The position numbers and the translations under genes were made by a program. From a virus, in IMG/VR virus record IMGVR_UViG_3300028844_001926, positions 1-26,803 of that record: a DNA stretch of 26,803 bases; one strand, given 5' to 3'. The notes below the pieces were generated by a model that ran no database searches, had not been told where the DNA came from, and worked only from the letters and a program-made list of their open reading frames with translations. Shown one piece after another: positions 679 to 25,124 of the stretch. Within the stretch, counting starts at the first letter, position 1; every line of letters starts with the position of its first letter.

Positions 679-707
679 TTGACATTATTGATGATCGCTG
701 TTATAAT
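679..707 (+). promoter_or_regulatory. Perfect consensus sigma70 promoter (P1)
   Basis: TTGACA at 679-684 and TATAAT at 702-707 are separated by exactly 17 bases, which is the full housekeeping consensus. The expected start of transcription is near 714. The first thing downstream is not a gene but a set of tight hairpins ending in a terminator at 794-842, so the product is most likely a short RNA. Confidence 0.85.
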
Positions 708-713
708 ATAATT

Positions 714-842
714 ACCAAAATACAAAGGTTTTGTTGAACCTTGTTACAATTGGATTTGCAGAGATGCAAAGGTTATGCGAGTGTATAACCACTAACCCAC
801 AATAGTTCTCCTAGTGCTAAGAGTTGCTGTTGTGGGTTTTTT
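714..842 (+). ncRNA. Candidate structured small RNA (about 130 nt)
   Basis: Between promoter P1 and a U-rich terminator I see four consecutive hairpins. They are AAGGTT/AACCTT (725-730 with 737-742), TTTGCA-GAGA-TGCAAA (755-770, a GNRA tetraloop), GGTTAT/ATAACC (771-776 with 785-790), and a long terminator arm AACCCACAA/TTGTGGGTT (794-802 with 830-838). No reading frame of useful length with a ribosome site lies inside. The fourth hairpin has further internal pairing (AG/CT, CTC/GAG), making a 45-nt rod. The family is unknown to me. It could act as an antisense or protein-binding RNA; the alternative is a structured 3' end of the early operon transcript. Confidence 0.6.
794..842 (+). terminator. 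Rho-independent terminator after the first small RNA
   Basis: A nine-base perfect stem (AACCCACAA with TTGTGGGTT) closes a partly paired 27-nt loop and is followed by a run of T to 842. It would end both the P1 transcript and read-through from the early operon ending at 663. Confidence 0.75.
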
Positions 843-1525: not shown

Positions 1526-4500
1526 ATGAGCACATATACAATATTGCCTAAAGACGATAGCAATTTAGGCGTAACGGTTATCAGTGATGACCAAAGTCAA
1601 GTAATAGTAGTTGACTCAGCAACACAACAAGTAACAGTAACAGAAGATGTAATTAGCGTAAGCGTTACACCAGGCCTTATTGGATCATTAACTGTTGATA
1701 GTGTTAATGGTAAAACAGGATTGGTTGTTTTAAATGCAGATGACATCAGTGAAACATCAGACCCTGCAGGAAACAAATACTACACTGCATCAAGAGATAC
1801 CGCACAATTTAATATTGATTTAGCATTGAAGACCACAGATGATTTAGCTGAAGGTTCAAGCAATGAATATTACACAGACGCTAAAACAAGAGCTGCTATC
1901 AGTGGTGCTGGTGATATTAACTACAATCAAAACACAGGTATCATATCATTTGATAGTTCAAGTCTTGTAACAAGTGTGAACGGACAAGATGGTGCCGTTG
2001 TATTAAGCACATCAAACATTGCAGAAGGCACTAACAAATACTGGACACAGGTTCGCTTTGATGCTGCAATAGGTGCCGCTGACACAGATGATTTAGATGA
2101 AGGCAATGTTAACTTATATTACACAGATGTTAGAGCACAAACTGTAATCACTGCAAACACAGAACAATTTATTAAAGCTGATTCAACAGAAACCCTTACA
2201 AACAAATCAGGAAACATATCACAGTGGTCAAATGATAGTGATTATGTTACAAGTGTAAATGGAATTGAAGGTCCATCTACAGTATTAGACACAGACAATA
2301 TTCAAGAAGATACAAGCCCAACAAACAAATGGTTCACAGAAGCTAGAGCCAGAAGCAGTGTTAGTGTAAACGACACTGGTGGAGATGGAAGTTTAAGTTA
2401 TGATAACACCACAGGTGTGTTTACTTTTACAGGCCCAGCACCAAGTGATGTTAGAGTTTTAGTAGATGCAGATGATTTAGGTGGAGATGGAAGCTTCACT
2501 TACGATAACACAACAGGTATCTTTAGTTACACTGGGCCAAGTGCCGCAGAAGTAAGAGCACACTTTAGTGAAGGTGATGGAATAGATATTAATTCAGGTG
2601 TGATCAGCATTGAAACAGATGGCGTTGACGCTACACACATTGACTTTGGAACAGGAGCCAACCAGGTAAGCACCCAAAACTTACCAGAGAACAATAATCT
2701 GTATTACACAGATTCAAGAGCTAGACTCAGTTTAACTGTAAATGATTTAGGTGGTGATGGAAGTATCACTTATGATAATGCCACAGGTGTTATTGATTAC
2801 ACAGGACCAAATCAAACAGAAGTAAGAGCACACATTACAAAAGCATTTGTAGATGCATTAGGCATTCAAGCTACAAGTGTAGATGCTGACAGTGTAGCAT
2901 TAGGCACAGACACAACAGGTGATTATGTGCAAAGCATTACTGGAACAGCAAACAAAATTGAAGTAAGCGGAAGTGGAACAGAAGGTAGACCAGTTACATT
3001 AACATTACCAAGCACAGTTCAGATTGCACAAGATCTAACTGTAGGCGGAAACCTAACTGTAAACGGTGACTTAACATATCTAAACACCACAGACTTACAA
3101 ATACAAGATAACTTATTTGAACTAAATGCAGGCTTAACAGGCACACCAACAAATGACAGTGGAATGCTTATACAAAGAGGCAATCAAACTAATCAAATCT
3201 TTATGTGGGACGAAAGTGTAGACAAGTTTACATTGGGTGCCACTGCCAGTGAAGATGGTGCCAGAGGAAACATTAATGTTACTGTGGGAACATTGGTTGC
3301 AAACATTGAAGGTGATTTAACTGGAAATGTTGTAGGTAATGTTACAGGTAATGTAACAGGAGATACAACCGGTCATCATTATGGTGAATCAACTGGTGAT
3401 GTAGCAGGTGATGTTACAGGTGATCTAATTGGTGATGTTACAGGTGACTTAACAGGTAACACTAGTGGAACACACACTGGACCAGTTGTAGGCAATGTAA
3501 CAGGAAATGTTACAGGAGATGTAAGTGGAACACTAAACGGACCAAGCAACGGAACACACACTGGCCAAGTAAATGGATCTACAGTTACAGCAAGTGGCGG
3601 ATTTACAGGCGCATTAGTAGGTAATGTCACAGGAGATGTTACAGGTAATGTCACTGGAGATTTAACAGGAGATGTTGCAGGTAAAATAACATCAACAGGC
3701 ACTGGCGCACAAAAGAGTGTATTCACAGAAGTTGACATCAATGGTGGTGCAATAGACGGCACACCAATTGGCGGCAATGTAGCCAGCACAGGTGAATTTA
3801 CAACTGTATCAACCACAGGTTCAATTACTGCTAATACAGGCTTTACAGGAAACTTAACAGGTGATGTTACGGGAAATGTGACAGGTAATGTTACGGGTAA
3901 TGTTACTGGAGATTTAACTGGTGATGTAACAGGTAATGTTAGTGGAAACGCCGGCACTGTTACAAGTTTATCAAATCAAAGCACAACAAATTTAGCTGAA
4001 GGTAATAATCTATATTACACAACAACACGAGCCAACACAGACTTTGATACTAGATTAGCTACCAAAGATACAGACGATTTAACAGAAGGTTCAAATGAAT
4101 ATTACACAGATGCCAAAGTATTAACTAAGATTAACAACACAAGCATTGACGCTTTAAGCGATGTTGACACCAGCACAGACACACCATCAGTTGCACAAGT
4201 ATTAGAATGGGATGGAAACAATTGGGTCCCAGGTGACGCAGGTATTGGTGATGTTACACAAACAGGCACACAAACACTAACCAACAAAACATTAACAAGC
4301 CCAATAGTAAACGCCCTTATTGCAACAACACCAGGTGACCCAATTGCAATAAAGAAAATTAAATCTTTTGCAGGTAGCAGTGGGCCAATTAACCCAAGCA
4401 ATTTTGGCGGGCAATTAGCTGGTATCAATACCAGCTCTACAATTAATTCAGACTCACATACTTTTCCTAATATTCCAAATGCCGTAGTTAATGGCGTTTA

Positions 4501-7500
4501 TTCATATGCTGGCTTTGGTTGGAGTGATCAATTAGCAGCAAGAGAAGGTCAGACAGGTTCAAATCCTTGGCTTGATAAAGCAATTGTTGAAGTATCATTA
4601 ACCAGAGAACCAATTAGTGGCTTAGCCACTACTGAATTCTTAAGTGCTAAAGCTCTTTATGAAGGTGGATTTTCTACAAAAACAATTAACAAGACTTACG
4701 CTCCTAACACTGGTAGCTACTATAATATCAGACCAAAAGAAACTGATGGACATTTAAGTGAATTAACTTTAACTGGATCATCAGCATCTACTAGTGCATT
4801 GTCACCACAAAGTGATAACAATTGGCAATACAATAGATTAAAAAGCACAACTAATGGATCTACACTAGCAAACTTAGATATAGATGGCAGTGCAATATCA
4901 TTTTATAACAATGAATATAGGTTTCCAAGCACAGCAGGAACCAGTGGACAAGTATTATTTACAGATGGTAACGGTAACCTAAGTTGGACTTCAGCAGTTG
5001 GAACAGTTTCAAGTGTTAACAATCTAACAGGTGCTGTTGTATTAGATACAGATGATATTCAAGAAGATGCTAATCCAACAAACTTATACTTTACAGATGC
5101 TAGAGTAGAAACCAAATTAAACGCCACTAACTTAGATGAGATACAAGATGTTGTTTATACATCAGCGCCACAGGCTGGTGAAGTGTTGCTATGGGATAGC
5201 ACTGTTTATCCAAACGGCGCATGGAGACCAAATGTAGTATCTGGAACAGGAACTGTAACAAGTATTACAGGTGGAACAGGATTAACAGGTGGCACTATAA
5301 CAGGTGCAGGAACACTGGATGTTGATGTTGGAACAACTGCAAACAAAATAATTCAATTAGATGGTCAAGCAAAAATACCAGCAGTTGATGGTTCACAATT
5401 AACCAATGTGCCAGCGTCAGGTGTTCAAAGTATTACACCAGGACTAGGTTTATATAATACACAAGGTGGAACAGGTGTTCCTATTACAAACACTGGAACA
5501 ATTGCAGTAGATGTTGGAACATTTGCAAATAGTTATATTAGTAAGATTTGTCAATTTGATTCAAGTGGTAGATTACCAGCAGTAGATGGTTCACAGTTAA
5601 CAAACTTACCAGCAAGTGCAGCACAAACACTTAGCTTTAGTAGTCCAGACTTAGCATTATCAGGCGGTGGCGGAACTGTTGATTTATCAACATTAACACC
5701 AAGCTCAATGGCGTGGAGTGCAATTACAGGCACACCAACTACTATTAGTGGATACGGAATTACAGACGCATTTGATGGAGCATACAGCTCATTAAGTGGA
5801 CTACCAACATTGTTCAGTGGTGCTTATGCAGACTTAACAGGTAAACCAACATTATTTGATGGAGCATACAGCTCATTAAGTGGACTACCAACTACAATAA
5901 GTGGATACGGAATTACAGATGGTGTTACATTAACTGGAACAGAAACACTAACCAACAAAACAATACCAGCTTTTACTGGTAATGAAATCAAATACATAGC
6001 CAACAGTGGAAGTGGTAATAACTTCCAAGCATTAAAGATTGTTAATGAATATGATTCAACTTTAACACCAGACTGGAGTGCATACGATGGTTCATTCCAA
6101 ATGCAAAACTACACTGATGCACAAAATGACTGGATTAATGTTTTACAATTCCAAACACCAAACCAGAAGAACATGTTTAGGCTTAACATTGACAACTCAG
6201 ATTTTGTAGACAATGATGGTAATATAACTCTTAAGAGCGTTACTGCAGGTAATTTTATAACTGGCAAGTCATATAAAATTACCAGTGCTGGAACCACAGA
6301 CTTTACACAAATTGGTGCAGCTGATAATAATGATGACACACTATTTGTAGCCACTGGTGCAGGAACTGGAACAGGAACAGCTGATGCATGGGACACTGGT
6401 TCACACTTTTCAACATTAAGTATGAAAGGTGCAGACGACATTGGCTTTGTAAAAGCAAGTGACGGATTTATCACTGGTGTTAAATATAAGATCTTTACAG
6501 TTGGAACCACAGACTTTACAGCCGTTGGTTCAGCAGACAACAATGTAGGCACAGAATTTACATGTGATGCAACTGGTTCAAGTGGAACAGGTGTTGCGGT
6601 TGATCTAAGACCTTTTAAAGGACAGAAAAACAGATTTAGTTCTTACACTGCTCATCAAGGTCCAAATGTGTGGCCAACTAATTTAGATTTTGAAGCTAAC
6701 AGTATTAGCTTCCACAATAATTATGTATTCCCTAAAACAGATGGTAGTGCAAACCAAGTATTAACAACAGATGGTTCAGGACAATTAAGTTTTACAAGTC
6801 CTAGCGGAACTGGAACTGTAACAAGTGTTGATTCAGGAACAGGCTTAACAGGCGGACCAATTACAGGTTCAGGAACATTAAATGTTGATGTTGGAACAAG
6901 TGCAAATCAAATTGTTCAATTAGATGGCAGTGCAAAACTACCAGCAGTAGACGGAAGTAACTTAACAAACTTACCAAGTGGTGCTGCTCAGACACTTAGC
7001 TTTAGTAGTCCTGACTTAACAATAAGTGGAAGTTCAAGCACTGTTGACCTAAGTGCATTAAGCACAACATCATTGGCGTGGAGTGCAATCACTTCAACAC
7101 CAACAACAATTGCAGGTTATGGAATTACAGATGCATTTGATGGCGCTTATAGTTCATTAAGTGGATTACCAACATTGTATGATAATGCTGATGTAGATAC
7201 ACATTTGAATACATCTAGTGCAACAACCAATCAAGTATTAAGTTGGACTGGAACAGACTATGACTGGGTTGCTAATTCAGGTGGTAGTTCAACTACAATC
7301 AACAACAATGCTGACAACAGAATTATTACAGGTAGTGGCACTGCTAATACACTTAACGGTGAAAGTGATTTAACTTATGATGGTGATCATTTATTAGTAG
7401 AAGGAACTGCCGGTGGAACAGATGATGCGGTTGTTAATATTAAAACAGACAATTCAAGTTGGAACACACCACAAATTACATTAGAAGACAGTGACTCAAA

Positions 7501-9307
7501 AGCAGTTGCACTTGTTGGTCAAAATGATGCCATCAATGATGTAGATAAACTTGTGTTTATGATGGACCCAGAAGGTAATCATAACAGGACAGGTGCTTAC
7601 ACAGGTGATTACGGATTCTACTACACCAAAGACTGGTCAGACCTTGCAGGTGGCGGTGATATTACAATGCGTATGAGAACCTTTGGTGCAGAAGATCATC
7701 TTGAATTTTTAGTTAAAGGTGACTATACTTCAAATTATGCATACAGACCAATGCATGTGAAGACACAAAAGTTTAAAGTTCAAGTCAGTGACAACAGTCA
7801 AAATTTGTCAGAAGCATTGAGAGTTGAAGATGGAACCATTAGATTCTTTGAAGAATACAAGTTCCCAACAACAGATGGTAGTGCAAACCAAGTATTAACA
7901 ACAGATGGTCTTGGAAACTTAACATTCGAAACTCCAGGAGTTACACAAGGTGGAGCAGAAACACTAAGCAACAAAACCCTAGCTTCACCAATACTAAGTG
8001 GAACAACTACAAGTGCAAGTGGCAACATTGTTTTAGATCCTGCCACACAAATAGTAGAAATAAAAGGTGACGGAAGCAGCGTAGAAGGACAGATTAAACT
8101 TAACTGTCACGCTAACAGTCACGGCCAAACAATTAAAGCACAACCACACAGTGCAGGTGTTACTAACACAATGCTATTACCACCTGGCTCTAATTCAACA
8201 TTAGTTTCAGAAGTAAGTGCTTCAAACTTAACAAACAAAACAGGTAACATTAGTCAATGGACAAATGATAGTAATTACTTAACAAGTGTTCCAGCTCAAT
8301 CATTTAGTAGTCTTACTGGAAAGCCAACTACTATTGCAGGTTATGGAATTACTGATTCTTTTGCTGATGCTGATGTAGACACACACTTAAACACATCAAC
8401 TGCAACAACTAACCAAGTGTTAAGTTGGACAGGAACAGACTATGACTGGGTTACTAACTCAGGTGGCGGTGGTAGTTCAACACTCAGTGGATTAACTGAT
8501 GTTGATATTACAAGTGTTCAGAACAATGATCTACTTATGTATAATTCAACAGCAAGTGAATGGCAGAACACTAACTTAGGCGTAAGTGTAACACCAACAC
8601 TAACTGGTGATAGCAGTGGATTTAGCGGACAACCATACACTTTAACAGTTTCAAATCATGCTACATATGATGACCCTGCATACAGCGTAGAAGTTTATAC
8701 AGGTTCTACTAGAGTTGTGCAGAATTCAGCTGTAACAGACAATGGTGATGGAACGCTAACATTTACAGCACCAGCCACAGGCACACATGAAATAAGAATT
8801 AGATGTCAAGACTTTGGTGACTTACAATCAGAGATAGCAACCAAGGCACTAACAACTACAGCATTTGAATTCAACTACAGATACTTCCGTTTATTGTTTA
8901 ACAGTGCAATTGCTTCAGGAACGCTAATTAAAGAATTTGGAATGTATACAAGTGGTAGCCAAGGTGGAACTAAATGGCCAACAAGTGCATTGACTTCAAA
9001 CTCAGCACCAACACCATTTGTTGCAAGCGGTGTAGGAGTTTATGGCGGAACAACATATAATTATTTCAAAGCGTTTGATAACGCTACCAACACCATGTTT
9101 TGGAACTTATCTGGAACAAGCAACACAGACTACCTTAGCATTGATTTAGGTAGTGCTCAAGCAATACAAAGTTTCAAAATAGAAACAGCCGGCTTTGTTC
9201 AATCAACTTGTTTAATTCAAGCAAGTTCAACAGGAGCTTGGGGTGGTGAAGAAGTAGATGTGCAAGAAGTATCTTTAGCAACCAATAGCACATTTAACAT
9301 AGGATAA
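1526..9307 (+). CDS. Giant repetitive tail fibre / receptor-binding protein, 2593 aa
   Basis: This single gene is about 29% of the genome. From N to C it shows YYTDARA-type repeats mixed with TLTNKS modules (residues about 50-450). Three blocks of tetrapeptide repeats of the form T-G-N/D-V/L follow (about 595-815), expected to form a thin trimeric beta-structure. Next come ISGYGITDAFDGAYSSLSGLPT repeats (about 1400-1480 and again near 1850), and two copies of a Y-x-I-x3-G-T-T-D-F-T domain (about 1575 and 1650). An Ig-like segment lies near 2350-2440. The C-terminal domain from about 2446 resembles F5/8 type C (discoidin) carbohydrate-binding modules, with YFRLLF, AFDN, and YLSIDLGSAQAI. The last domain is the likely receptor contact. 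Long exact internal DNA repeats suggest growth by duplication. Confidence 0.85.
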   Translation: MSTYTILPKDDSNLGVTVISDDQSQVIVVDSATQQVTVTEDVISVSVTPGLIGSLTVDSVNGKTGLVVLNADDISETSDPAGNKYYTASRDTAQFNIDLALKTTDDLAEGSSNEYYTDAKTRAAISGAGDINYNQNTGIISFDSSSLVTSVNGQDGAVVLSTSNIAEGTNKYWTQVRFDAAIGAADTDDLDEGNVNLYYTDVRAQTVITANTEQFIKADSTETLTNKSGNISQWSNDSDYVTSVNGIEGPSTVLDTDNIQEDTSPTNKWFTEARARSSVSVNDTGGDGSLSYDNTTGVFTFTGPAPSDVRVLVDADDLGGDGSFTYDNTTGIFSYTGPSAAEVRAHFSEGDGIDINSGVISIETDGVDATHIDFGTGANQVSTQNLPENNNLYYTDSRARLSLTVNDLGGDGSITYDNATGVIDYTGPNQTEVRAHITKAFVDALGIQATSVDADSVALGTDTTGDYVQSITGTANKIEVSGSGTEGRPVTLTLPSTVQIAQDLTVGGNLTVNGDLTYLNTTDLQIQDNLFELNAGLTGTPTNDSGMLIQRGNQTNQIFMWDESVDKFTLGATASEDGARGNINVTVGTLVANIEGDLTGNVVGNVTGNVTGDTTGHHYGESTGDVAGDVTGDLIGDVTGDLTGNTSGTHTGPVVGNVTGNVTGDVSGTLNGPSNGTHTGQVNGSTVTASGGFTGALVGNVTGDVTGNVTGDLTGDVAGKITSTGTGAQKSVFTEVDINGGAIDGTPIGGNVASTGEFTTVSTTGSITANTGFTGNLTGDVTGNVTGNVTGNVTGDLTGDVTGNVSGNAGTVTSLSNQSTTNLAEGNNLYYTTTRANTDFDTRLATKDTDDLTEGSNEYYTDAKVLTKINNTSIDALSDVDTSTDTPSVAQVLEWDGNNWVPGDAGIGDVTQTGTQTLTNKTLTSPIVNALIATTPGDPIAIKKIKSFAGSSGPINPSNFGGQLAGINTSSTINSDSHTFPNIPNAVVNGVYSYAGFGWSDQLAAREGQTGSNPWLDKAIVEVSLTREPISGLATTEFLSAKALYEGGFSTKTINKTYAPNTGSYYNIRPKETDGHLSELTLTGSSASTSALSPQSDNNWQYNRLKSTTNGSTLANLDIDGSAISFYNNEYRFPSTAGTSGQVLFTDGNGNLSWTSAVGTVSSVNNLTGAVVLDTDDIQEDANPTNLYFTDARVETKLNATNLDEIQDVVYTSAPQAGEVLLWDSTVYPNGAWRPNVVSGTGTVTSITGGTGLTGGTITGAGTLDVDVGTTANKIIQLDGQAKIPAVDGSQLTNVPASGVQSITPGLGLYNTQGGTGVPITNTGTIAVDVGTFANSYISKICQFDSSGRLPAVDGSQLTNLPASAAQTLSFSSPDLALSGGGGTVDLSTLTPSSMAWSAITGTPTTISGYGITDAFDGAYSSLSGLPTLFSGAYADLTGKPTLFDGAYSSLSGLPTTISGYGITDGVTLTGTETLTNKTIPAFTGNEIKYIANSGSGNNFQALKIVNEYDSTLTPDWSAYDGSFQMQNYTDAQNDWINVLQFQTPNQKNMFRLNIDNSDFVDNDGNITLKSVTAGNFITGKSYKITSAGTTDFTQIGAADNNDDTLFVATGAGTGTGTADAWDTGSHFSTLSMKGADDIGFVKASDGFITGVKYKIFTVGTTDFTAVGSADNNVGTEFTCDATGSSGTGVAVDLRPFKGQKNRFSSYTAHQGPNVWPTNLDFEANSISFHNNYVFPKTDGSANQVLTTDGSGQLSFTSPSGTGTVTSVDSGTGLTGGPITGSGTLNVDVGTSANQIVQLDGSAKLPAVDGSNLTNLPSGAAQTLSFSSPDLTISGSSSTVDLSALSTTSLAWSAITSTPTTIAGYGITDAFDGAYSSLSGLPTLYDNADVDTHLNTSSATTNQVLSWTGTDYDWVANSGGSSTTINNNADNRIITGSGTANTLNGESDLTYDGDHLLVEGTAGGTDDAVVNIKTDNSSWNTPQITLEDSDSKAVALVGQNDAINDVDKLVFMMDPEGNHNRTGAYTGDYGFYYTKDWSDLAGGGDITMRMRTFGAEDHLEFLVKGDYTSNYAYRPMHVKTQKFKVQVSDNSQNLSEALRVEDGTIRFFEEYKFPTTDGSANQVLTTDGLGNLTFETPGVTQGGAETLSNKTLASPILSGTTTSASGNIVLDPATQIVEIKGDGSSVEGQIKLNCHANSHGQTIKAQPHSAGVTNTMLLPPGSNSTLVSEVSASNLTNKTGNISQWTNDSNYLTSVPAQSFSSLTGKPTTIAGYGITDSFADADVDTHLNTSTATTNQVLSWTGTDYDWVTNSGGGGSSTLSGLTDVDITSVQNNDLLMYNSTASEWQNTNLGVSVTPTLTGDSSGFSGQPYTLTVSNHATYDDPAYSVEVYTGSTRVVQNSAVTDNGDGTLTFTAPATGTHEIRIRCQDFGDLQSEIATKALTTTAFEFNYRYFRLLFNSAIASGTLIKEFGMYTSGSQGGTKWPTSALTSNSAPTPFVASGVGVYGGTTYNYFKAFDNATNTMFWNLSGTSNTDYLSIDLGSAQAIQSFKIETAGFVQSTCLIQASSTGAWGGEEVDVQEVSLATNSTFNIG

Positions 9308-10768: not shown

Positions 10769-10981
10769 ATGAAACTAACCCCAGAACAATTAGACGCTTG
10801 GAGAGTAATACCAAGAATGCTGATACTAACATACATGATATGTTTCTATTTGGTTATAACTTGGTTTATGGATTTACCAGATCCAAACAATGCTCAAGCA
10901 GCATTTACCAGCACAATGATTGGTGCAGGTGCAGCTTGGTTTGGACTTTATGTAAATGGAAAATCAAATGCCTCTAAGTGA
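10769..10981 (+). CDS. Two-TM holin-like protein, 70 aa
   Basis: The ATG at 10769 is preferred over a longer in-frame start at 10667 that lies inside the XhlA-like gene. The protein has a short cytoplasmic N-terminus (MKLTPEQLDAWRVIPR), a first span MLILTYMICFYLVITWFM, a short loop with LPDPNNAQA, and a second, glycine/alanine-rich span TSTMIGAGAAWFGLYV. That size and topology fit a class II holin, and similar proteins in marine phages carry the same DAWRVIPR...PDPNNAQ...GAGAAWFGLY pattern. It follows the XhlA-like gene and overlaps the start of the large terminase. Confidence 0.6.
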   Translation: MKLTPEQLDAWRVIPRMLILTYMICFYLVITWFMDLPDPNNAQAAFTSTMIGAGAAWFGLYVNGKSNASK

Positions 10982-12203
10982 AGTTCAGAAAGAAGTAAGC
11001 GATGACCCAAGTAGATTTAAGGTTGTGGTTGCAGGGCGTAGATGGGGAAAGAGTTGGTTATCAATGCATGAGATGGCCAAGTATGCAAGGTTTCCCAATT
11101 CAAAGATCTTTTATGTTGCGCCAACCTATAAAATGTGTCGTCAAATATTATGGGATGACATTAAGGAAAAATTTATAAGAGCCCGTTGGGCTAAGAAGAT
11201 TAATGAAAGTAATTTAGAAATTACATTAGTTAATAATAGTAGGATATACTTACGCAGTGGTGATAACCCAGATAACTTGCGTGGTGTTAGTATGGATTAC
11301 TTGGTAATGGATGAAGCAGCTATGATAGACCAAAAGATGTGGACAGAAGTATGTAGACCAGCATTGTCAGACAGACAAGGTGGTGCTATGTTTATTACAA
11401 CTCCACAAGGCAAAGGTAGTTGGATTTATGACTTATGGCAAGGTGCACACTCACAAGAGAATTACAGTGCGTTTCAATATTCAACAATTGCTGGCGGTAA
11501 TGTTCCACCAGAAGAAATTGATGCAGCACGAAACGAATTAGATGAAAGAAGTTTTAGACAAGAATATGAAGCCAGCTTTGAAACTTATGCAGGAAGTATA
11601 TATTACAATTGGGATTCAAGCGTTCATATTAAGAAACAAGACATAGACTTTAAGAAGAATGAGATACTACATGTTGGGATGGACTTTAATGTTAGCCCAA
11701 TTGTTGCAATGATTTGCAGAGTTAATGGAAATGAAATAAGTGTAATAGATGAAATAGCTATGGAAGGATCAAATACATTTGAAATGGCAGAGGAATTGAC
11801 AAATAGATATCCTAATAATAGGTTATGGATTTATCCAGATGCGTCAGGACAGGCACGCAAAACCAGTTCAAATACAAGTGATCATCACATACTAAGAAAT
11901 GCAGGCTTTGTATTAAAAGTAAGAAACATTAATCCACCTGTTAAAGATAGAATAGCAAGTGTAAATGCTAGTTTAAAAGCAACAGACGGAACTGTAAAGA
12001 TACATGTTGATCCTAAATGCAAACATTTAATTAAATGCATTAGTGGACAAACATACAAAGAAGGAACTAGAATACCAGACAAGAGTGGAAACCTCGACCA
12101 TGCCATGGATGCTTTTGGATATCTAGTAAATTGGATCAATCCAATAAGACCTAATAAGCCAGAACATGTGAACAGAAGTCCGCAGTTATTTGGGCATTAT
12201 TAA
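10956..12203 (+). CDS. terL: Terminase large subunit, 415 aa
   Basis: This is the packaging motor ATPase and nuclease. The Walker A motif AGRRWGKS is at residues 26-33, Walker B YLVMDEAA at 115-122, and the coupling motif TTP at 148-150 with QGKGSW following. The C-terminal RNase H-like nuclease has acidic residues in HVGMDFN (D243), YPDASG (D295) and LDHAMDAFGY (D385). The length is near the usual 400-450 aa, so it looks complete. The start is uncertain: ATG 10956 overlaps the holin-like gene by 26 bases, while ATG 10968 gives MPLSEVQKEV with TGGAAA upstream and may be the true start. Confidence 0.93.
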   Translation: MENQMPLSEVQKEVSDDPSRFKVVVAGRRWGKSWLSMHEMAKYARFPNSKIFYVAPTYKMCRQILWDDIKEKFIRARWAKKINESNLEITLVNNSRIYLRSGDNPDNLRGVSMDYLVMDEAAMIDQKMWTEVCRPALSDRQGGAMFITTPQGKGSWIYDLWQGAHSQENYSAFQYSTIAGGNVPPEEIDAARNELDERSFRQEYEASFETYAGSIYYNWDSSVHIKKQDIDFKKNEILHVGMDFNVSPIVAMICRVNGNEISVIDEIAMEGSNTFEMAEELTNRYPNNRLWIYPDASGQARKTSSNTSDHHILRNAGFVLKVRNINPPVKDRIASVNASLKATDGTVKIHVDPKCKHLIKCISGQTYKEGTRIPDKSGNLDHAMDAFGYLVNWINPIRPNKPEHVNRSPQLFGHY

Positions 12204-24303: not shown

Positions 24304-24852
24304 ATGAACACCCCCACAGATTATACCACATATGGTGGTAAGCAAAGACTCAAAGCCATGTTTCAAAGAGTGTTAGATTTAGAAGATTATAAGAAACTAA
24401 CACACTTTGTTTTCTTACACACAGACTTTAAAGAAGAAATACCAGGAACATACAGTGTGTATCATATGCACAAAGAGGGACTGGCAATTGCCACAAATGC
24501 ATTGTGCATAAATGAATGGCTAAAACTACATGACATGCCAGTTAGACCAAAGATAAATGATTACACAGTGCAAAGAAAATTACTACATAACCAGGACGAA
24601 AGAATAGACAACAGGACTGAAGAAAGCGTTAACATGCAAAACAAACGAGGACGCAAACTAGGAGGAACAAACAATTTTGATCCTAATGCAGATCTTACTG
24701 CTAACATATGGAGTTGGCACAGTGCAGGAGTTACATCAGCAAAAATAAGCAGACGATTGGGAGTTACGCCAGCGGCTGTATATTATCATATAAAGAAATA
24801 CAAAAAAGCCAACCCAGATTATATTAAAGAGTTCTTAGAGGTTGACAGCTAA
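24304..24852 (+). CDS. Protein with C-terminal helix-turn-helix, possible regulator, 182 aa
   Basis: Residues 1-95 form a novel N-terminal domain (TTYGGKQRLKAMFQRVLDLE near the start). A charged linker MQNKRGRKLGGTNN follows. The C-terminus (about 135-175) is a helix-turn-helix: IWSWHSAGVTSAKISRRLGV then TPAAVYYHIKKYKK, typical of small DNA-binding modules. The start is weakly marked (ACAGGAT eight bases upstream). It is the last gene before promoter P2, whose -35 box lies within its final codons, with an inverted repeat covering its stop codon. That suggests it may act on the early region. A role as terminase- or fibre-associated protein cannot be excluded. Confidence 0.7.
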   Translation: MNTPTDYTTYGGKQRLKAMFQRVLDLEDYKKLTHFVFLHTDFKEEIPGTYSVYHMHKEGLAIATNALCINEWLKLHDMPVRPKINDYTVQRKLLHNQDERIDNRTEESVNMQNKRGRKLGGTNNFDPNADLTANIWSWHSAGVTSAKISRRLGVTPAAVYYHIKKYKKANPDYIKEFLEVDS

Positions 24853-24870
24853 GGTTTCTTAGTGTATAAA
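24842..24870 (+). promoter_or_regulatory. Near-consensus sigma70 promoter (P2) with inverted repeat in spacer
   Basis: TTGACA (24842-24847) and TATAAA (24865-24870) are 17 bases apart; the -35 box is inside the end of the HTH gene. The spacer holds CTAAG-GTTT-CTTAG (24849-24862), a possible operator. The -10 box overlaps TATAAATA, so it could also be read by a T4-type late sigma factor. Downstream is a structured RNA, not a gene. Confidence 0.75.
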
Positions 24871-24876
24871 TAGTAT

Positions 24877-25094
24877 TAGTAAATTAAAACATTTCAAGTA
24901 TATTACTCAAATGATTACAGTCAAGACATTCTCCAAAATGTTCAATAGTTTTAGTTTACAGTTGTATAAGGGTTATCTAGGAAATTCATTGCCTAGCTCC
25001 AACAAAATGTAACTGGAAACAGTGCCATATAGCAGACAACTGCCCACTACTTTATACAATGAATCTTAAAAAGGCGCAGAAATGCGTCTTTTTT
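24877..25094 (+). ncRNA. Candidate structured small RNA (about 220 nt)
   Basis: Between promoter P2 and the terminator at 25072-25094 lies a folded region. A closing stem TTGTATAA/TTATACAA (24962-24969 with 25052-25059) encloses CTAGG/CCTAG (24977-24981 with 24992-24996), the tetraloop hairpin ACTG-GAAA-CAGT (25012-25023) and GCAG/CTGC (25032-25035 with 25040-25043). Upstream is ACATT/AATGT (24926-24930 with 24937-24941). CAGTTGT (24959-24965) can pair instead with ACAACTG (25036-25042), so two folds exclude each other. A 33-codon frame at 24911-25012 has no ribosome site. I do not recognise the family; a regulatory RNA is the best reading. Confidence 0.55.
25072..25094 (+). terminator. Rho-independent terminator with GAAA tetraloop
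   Basis: AGGCGCA-GAAA-TGCGTCT forms a seven-base stem with one G-U pair, flanked by AAAA before and six T (25089-25094) after. It ends the P2 RNA and would also stop late transcription coming from the tail operon. Confidence 0.85.
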
Positions 25095-25095
25095 C

Positions 25096-25124
25096 TTGAC
25101 TAAAGCGTGTTTTTGTAGTATAAT
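25096..25124 (+). promoter_or_regulatory. Near-consensus sigma70 promoter (P3) for the early operon
   Basis: TTGACT (25096-25101) and TATAAT (25119-25124) are 17 bases apart. The -35 box begins one base after the terminator T-run, so terminator and promoter are fused. ATAAATA at 25126-25132 follows the -10. The transcript would start near 25131 and carry ATAAAAG/CTTTTAT (25139-25145 with 25152-25158) in its leader before the gene at 25180. Confidence 0.85.

Follow-up and report, generated by a model that had tools for sequence, protein, structure and literature searches.

What is transcribed from a full-consensus sigma70 promoter that appears to point at no gene? This question is raised by a short region near the start of the window, by which we mean the whole stretch of DNA analyzed here, a 26.8-kb linear virus record that is probably incomplete and carries siphovirus-type late genes. 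A preliminary description of the region had proposed a small RNA with four hairpins and its own terminator. Here we follow that proposal through the window and its relatives.

Genomic context

The following late genes were recognized in the window:

1193-1525: small assembly-type protein, directly before the tail-fibre gene
1526-9307: tail-fibre gene, a long ORF, named from its neighbour and position
10956-12203: terminase
from 12278: portal
from 14694: scaffold
from 15416: major head protein
from 18452: tape measure

The terminase has about 44% identity to those of the nearest isolated phages, Pelagibacter phage HTVC111P, phage DSL-LC06 and Vibrio phages. Relatives were collected via the genes and the DNA flanking the RNA locus. 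The 14-mer CAGTGGGGGTTCTG is present in 119 stretches, mostly by chance, and among these only stretches with extended similarity were kept. BLASTN with 660-860 as the query gave no real match among phage records, and 700-860 gave none among plasmids. In G001 and G003 the homologue of the 346-663 gene precedes the RNA locus by about 2.4-2.9 kb, which suggests that early genes are absent from the window or relocated in it (at 663-664).

Two features at the other end of the window were also observed. A 182-aa protein encoded at 24304-24852 has a C-terminal helix-turn-helix that weakly resembles sigma region 4 and invertases; it is a possible late regulator. A second probable noncoding RNA of ~215 nt is found at 24842-25092, with a TTGACA-17-TATAAA promoter, a fold z of -3.9 and a terminator just before an early promoter at 25096. 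Homologous DNA is present in G001, G003, G004 and G008, and the Rfam family STnc40 matches 25019-25094 below threshold.

A consensus promoter

679-707, + strand: sigma70-type promoter, TTGACA-17-TATAAT with an extended -10, read from the sequence; homologous DNA in G012 and G004

The consensus reported earlier is present, with TTGACA at 679-684 and TATAAT at 702-707 separated by a 17-base spacer, and a TG at 699-700 extends the -10. It is the sole 12/12 site found in the window, where a first-order Markov model of the window predicts 0.087 perfect sites at spacings of 16-18, so that even one is unusual by chance. The accompanying statement that such a promoter is rare in any genome does not hold for this group of phages. 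The window and 12 related contigs (311 kb) contain 20 perfect copies against about one expected, all of them on the + strand, which is that of the late genes, and grouped within the short early region. These numbers indicate that the perfect promoter is an ordinary early signal of the phage group. Several early promoters (in G001, G003, G007, G008, G009, G011 and G012) carry a palindrome, AAGACATCTT, between -35 and -10, which is possibly a repressor operator.

The window promoter sits in DNA homologous to a mini-ORF, with none of 1000 shuffles aligning as well. The homologous mini-ORF DNA reads TTGACA-17-TATGAT in G012 and TTAACA-22-TATAAA in G004; by sequence, what lies between a strong promoter (window and G012) and none (G004) is five bases of length and a few substitutions. 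One reading of this alignment is that the promoter arose by chance from a mini-gene in decay, and that the hairpins behind it are what is left of the end of a protein gene. The hairpin DNA does encode the last residues of a 55-aa ORF in G011 and G012 (ending in NKGFVEPVTIGFAEMQ, followed by the stop). However, G007 has no coding frame in this DNA, the frame is interrupted by indels, and the stems show covariation, and we consider decay of a gene highly improbable. Promoter activity in G012 was probably kept rather than accidental, since the mini-ORF DNA there also carries a near-consensus promoter. The narrower idea that hairpins 1 and 2 are a gene remnant was abandoned, as this DNA lies in no ORF in G007.

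The predicted RNA

714-842, + strand: predicted noncoding RNA of ~125 nt, with a probable start near 714 judging from the -10 position
722-744, + strand: hairpin 1, inside an outer 4-bp stem
755-770, + strand: hairpin 2, 6 bp with a GAGA tetraloop, the first of the twin hairpins
771-790, + strand: hairpin 3, 8 bp with a GAGT tetraloop, the second of the twin hairpins
794-842, + strand: T1, intrinsic terminator with a 13-bp stem and a U run, in the same place in relatives with a different sequence

The fold of 714-845 has an energy of -45.9 kcal/mol (z -5.39), and 0 of 200 shuffles folded as well. All four hairpins described earlier are recovered, three of them where they had been placed (755-770 with GAGA, 771-790 with GAGT, and 794-838), while the first spans 722-744 and not 725-742. 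The terminator stem, which had been given as nine bases, has 13 bp in the minimum-energy fold. Reading the sequence directly in the window and relatives, we found no conserved ORF within the predicted RNA, and its sole short frame, with an ATG at 766, is not kept in the relatives. The preliminary description had left the family unassigned, and a covariance search against Rfam 15 agrees, giving no family at or above gathering threshold for the predicted RNA; the only sub-threshold match, ST7-OT3_1 at 609-682 (E 0.55), falls outside it.

Comparison of the predicted RNA with the start regions of the phage genes gave no excess complementarity, with 0.67 of shuffled RNAs equal or better. Together with the lack of a long unpaired seed in the predicted RNA, this result disfavours antisense pairing with phage mRNAs.

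Conservation of the twin hairpins

Twin hairpins with GAG loops are found at the early/late junction in eight records: the window (G000), G001, G004, G005, G006, G007, G011 and G012. The layout is a 5-6 bp stem with a GAGA or GAGC loop, an abutting 8 bp stem with a GAGN loop, and then a terminator. Because MAFFT misaligned G005 and shifted hairpin 2, the sequences were aligned by hand on their structure for the counting of pairs. On this alignment of a small sample, eight sequences from related contigs, which leans towards structure because it is arranged by it, hairpin 3 pairs in 56/56 cells over seven distinct sequences, with two-sided changes at 7 of 8 pairs, and hairpin 2 in 38/42 cells over seven distinct sequences, again with two-sided changes. 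The stems form in each sequence alone. Slid controls gave 17-29 paired cells for hairpin 3 and 8-16 for hairpin 2, or fractions of 0.23-0.52.

GAG at the start of the loop is invariant in both twin hairpins. The stems vary freely around these fixed GAG loops, which suggests that a protein or polymerase recognizes the shape and the loops. Compensatory changes, which the preliminary description had proposed to look for in all four stems, are confirmed in hairpins 2 and 3. Hairpin 1 is kept only in close relatives (G000, G007, G011 and G012 among the records examined) and is degenerate in L154; the stem of the terminator varies, yet pairs. As judged from the aligned sequences, the structure is conserved by compensatory change, a mark by which phage small noncoding RNAs are recognized.

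A covariance model (R1) trained on five sequences finds two untrained ones at the same locus, G001 (E 2.7e-7) and G004 (E 3.3e-5). Each record has a single strong copy by this model, and none has a second. R1 matches in G014, G017, G018 and HTVC111P were weak (15-18 bits), and these were not accepted as members. The twin hairpins are missing in G003, G008, G009, G010 and L156/L157, while T1 is kept in most. The RNA is therefore a dispensable accessory of the junction rather than a fixed part of the late switch.

Transcription of the RNA in relatives

The window shares a perfect (12/12) sigma70 promoter just upstream of the RNA with G005. The more distant L215/L216 have TTGACA-16-TATTAT (11/12), followed by two hairpins and a terminator (fold z -7.39); these hairpins have AGA triloops in a repeated CACAGAGUG context. 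Thus, a sigma70 promoter of its own recurs in two lineages other than that of the window. The RNA of G004, G007 and G011 begins just after TATAAATA or GATAAATA, i.e. phage (G/T)ATAAATA, which suggests that a start at the same point recurs via different promoters. In some relatives the RNA lacks a sigma70 promoter and sits in the 3' UTR of an early operon, and in G001 it is plainly a 3' UTR, following the stop codon of a protein gene by 4 nt.

The small RNA with its own terminator that had been proposed is supported in part. Sequence signals for its own promoter and its own terminator are both present at the RNA locus, hairpins 2 and 3 covary, and promoter, twin hairpins and terminator recur as a unit, but the promoter of its own is absent in several relatives. 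Hairpins so close behind a stop codon in G001, and a T1 more widely kept than the twin hairpins, would also be consistent with a terminator that closes the early region, equipped with stabilizing hairpins and yielding an RNA that has no separate function. We find this unlikely, as the invariant GAG, the twin geometry and a dedicated promoter in three lineages exceed the needs of a generic stabilizer.

The downstream late leader

Downstream of the RNA, the late leader has a conserved layout of its own:

943-971, + strand: hairpin with a conserved UGGGGGUU loop, outside the RNA; stem sequence changes and pairing is kept in aligned relatives
977-1012, + strand: T2, terminator-like hairpin with its loop at 994-1002 (UCCUUGUUG), complementary to the Shine-Dalgarno region at 1053-1061 (CAACAAGGA)
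1035-1042, + strand: GATAAATA motif, candidate phage late promoter, between T2 and the Shine-Dalgarno site
1071-1193: gene for a 40-aa hydrophobic peptide, conserved in the examined relatives, where the tail-fibre assembly gene follows it immediately

The hairpin at 943-971 lies just after a (C/T)TAAATAC motif; similar G-rich loops occur in the distant relatives L153, L160 and L215, and GGGG in L165 and L218. An H-type pseudoknot at 943-976 was considered and rejected, since by eye a plain hairpin accounts for every relative, whereas some of them lack the partners that the pseudoknot requires. The 40-aa leader protein had no match in a scan of bacterial genomes.

The T2 loop and the Shine-Dalgarno region are conserved and co-vary, being perfectly complementary over 7-11 nt in 16/16 sequences, with a mean of 9.06 compared to 4.74 for shuffled hairpins. 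When loops and sites were re-paired among genomes, the observed mean was reached in 48 of 2000 permutations. Such complementarity makes it possible that the T2 loop masks translation on read-through transcripts.

The T4 late promoter is TATAAATA, and the GATAAATA of the window resembles it. In 13/13 related records GATAAATA occurs 2-5 times on the + strand and 0 times on the - strand. Its positions in the window (1035, 12209, 14624 and 25125) are mostly noncoding and upstream of late genes, including portal and scaffold. A gp55-like sigma factor was not recognized among the window proteins scanned. With these elements, read-through transcripts would be both masked and terminated, and transcripts started at GATAAATA would be translated.

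Wherever the unit is found, it immediately precedes the entire late operon, with T1 and then the terminator-like T2 behind it, and this layout invites another explanation. RNA from a constitutive promoter could stop at T1 (and T2) and be released into the late genes only by an antiterminator, or by the twin hairpins acting as one; the gate would then act in cis, as in lambda pR'/6S RNA with Q or in HK022 put RNA. In the put RNAs, too, two stem-loops make up ~70 nt, and putL lies shortly after an early promoter (PMC9378689). On the other hand, several relatives without twin hairpins still keep the late operon, and GATAAATA upstream of the small ORF, portal and scaffold suggests that the late genes have their own promoter. 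Neither a Q-type antiterminator nor an N-like protein was recognized among the window proteins scanned, which comprise all but a few late proteins of an incomplete contig. R1 had no match in HK022, a weak test given that R1 was trained only on the twin-hairpin family. A gate of this kind is the main rival to the role proposed below, although we consider it less likely.

Proposed role of the RNA

Structure, covariation, single copy, position, and the recurrence of promoter, twin hairpins and terminator were computed directly. For what they may mean, we propose that this phage noncoding RNA, which is short (~125 nt) and terminated, represents a new family whose twin hairpins dock a protein or RNA polymerase, and we give this reading an even chance of being right. 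Host sigma70 RNA polymerase would transcribe a discrete noncoding RNA from 714 to about 840. Its own intrinsic terminator, T1, would end it at the junction where the early genes give way to the late operon (tail, packaging, capsid). The conserved core would consist of two abutting GAG-loop hairpins, with stems free in sequence and fixed in pairing. These would dock a protein from phage or host, possibly RNA polymerase, rather than base-pair with a target, and the docked RNA, short and stable, could act either in trans or on its own terminator.

A more far-reaching version would make the twin GAG-loop RNA a new phage RNA class that controls the early-to-late switch by binding a regulator or RNA polymerase, with the downstream leader masking the Shine-Dalgarno site. 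The terminator-like loop downstream would then mask this site in read-through transcripts, and transcripts from the downstream ATAAATA promoter would escape. This combination seems to us quite improbable. Should the RNA bind a regulator or polymerase, we would learn from it how late genes are timed in a small phage whose early region spans only a few kilobases. Little is known about regulatory RNAs in uncultured marine phages, and the present one forms a compact family backed by covariation, whose position is clear, whose promoter is strong and whose loop motif can be tested.

Comparison with known systems

In lambda, the 6S RNA, or pR' leader with tR', is a short terminated transcript from a constitutive sigma70 promoter directly upstream of the late genes, in a system that involves Q. 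The window RNA resembles it in its sigma70 promoter, its short terminated RNA (as predicted) and the late operon next to it. It differs in that relatives place the RNA in 3' UTRs or behind ATAAATA, and in having candidate late promoters downstream.

The put RNA of HK022 is an element of factor-free antitermination through the beta' zinc-binding domain. It also consists of two stem-loops in ~70 nt near an early promoter; its stems are long and bulged, with a triplex in stem I (PMC9378689). Both RNAs are of phage origin and have two adjacent stem-loops close downstream of an early promoter (PMC9378689), and two stem-loops in ~70 nt downstream of an early promoter are indeed found in the window RNA. 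Its structure is not put-like, in line with the R1 search of HK022 and its limited reach: the stems are short, perfect and unbulged with free sequence, the loops are 4-nt GAG loops, and a terminator follows immediately, in an RNA that is absent from several relatives.

Phage-encoded small RNAs (PMC12197685) and 3' UTR-derived sRNAs are likewise short, terminated and noncoding, and the window RNA has counterparts in relatives that sometimes lie in a 3' UTR. It differs from these in lacking an evident base-pairing seed, and what is conserved instead is its shape and its loops.
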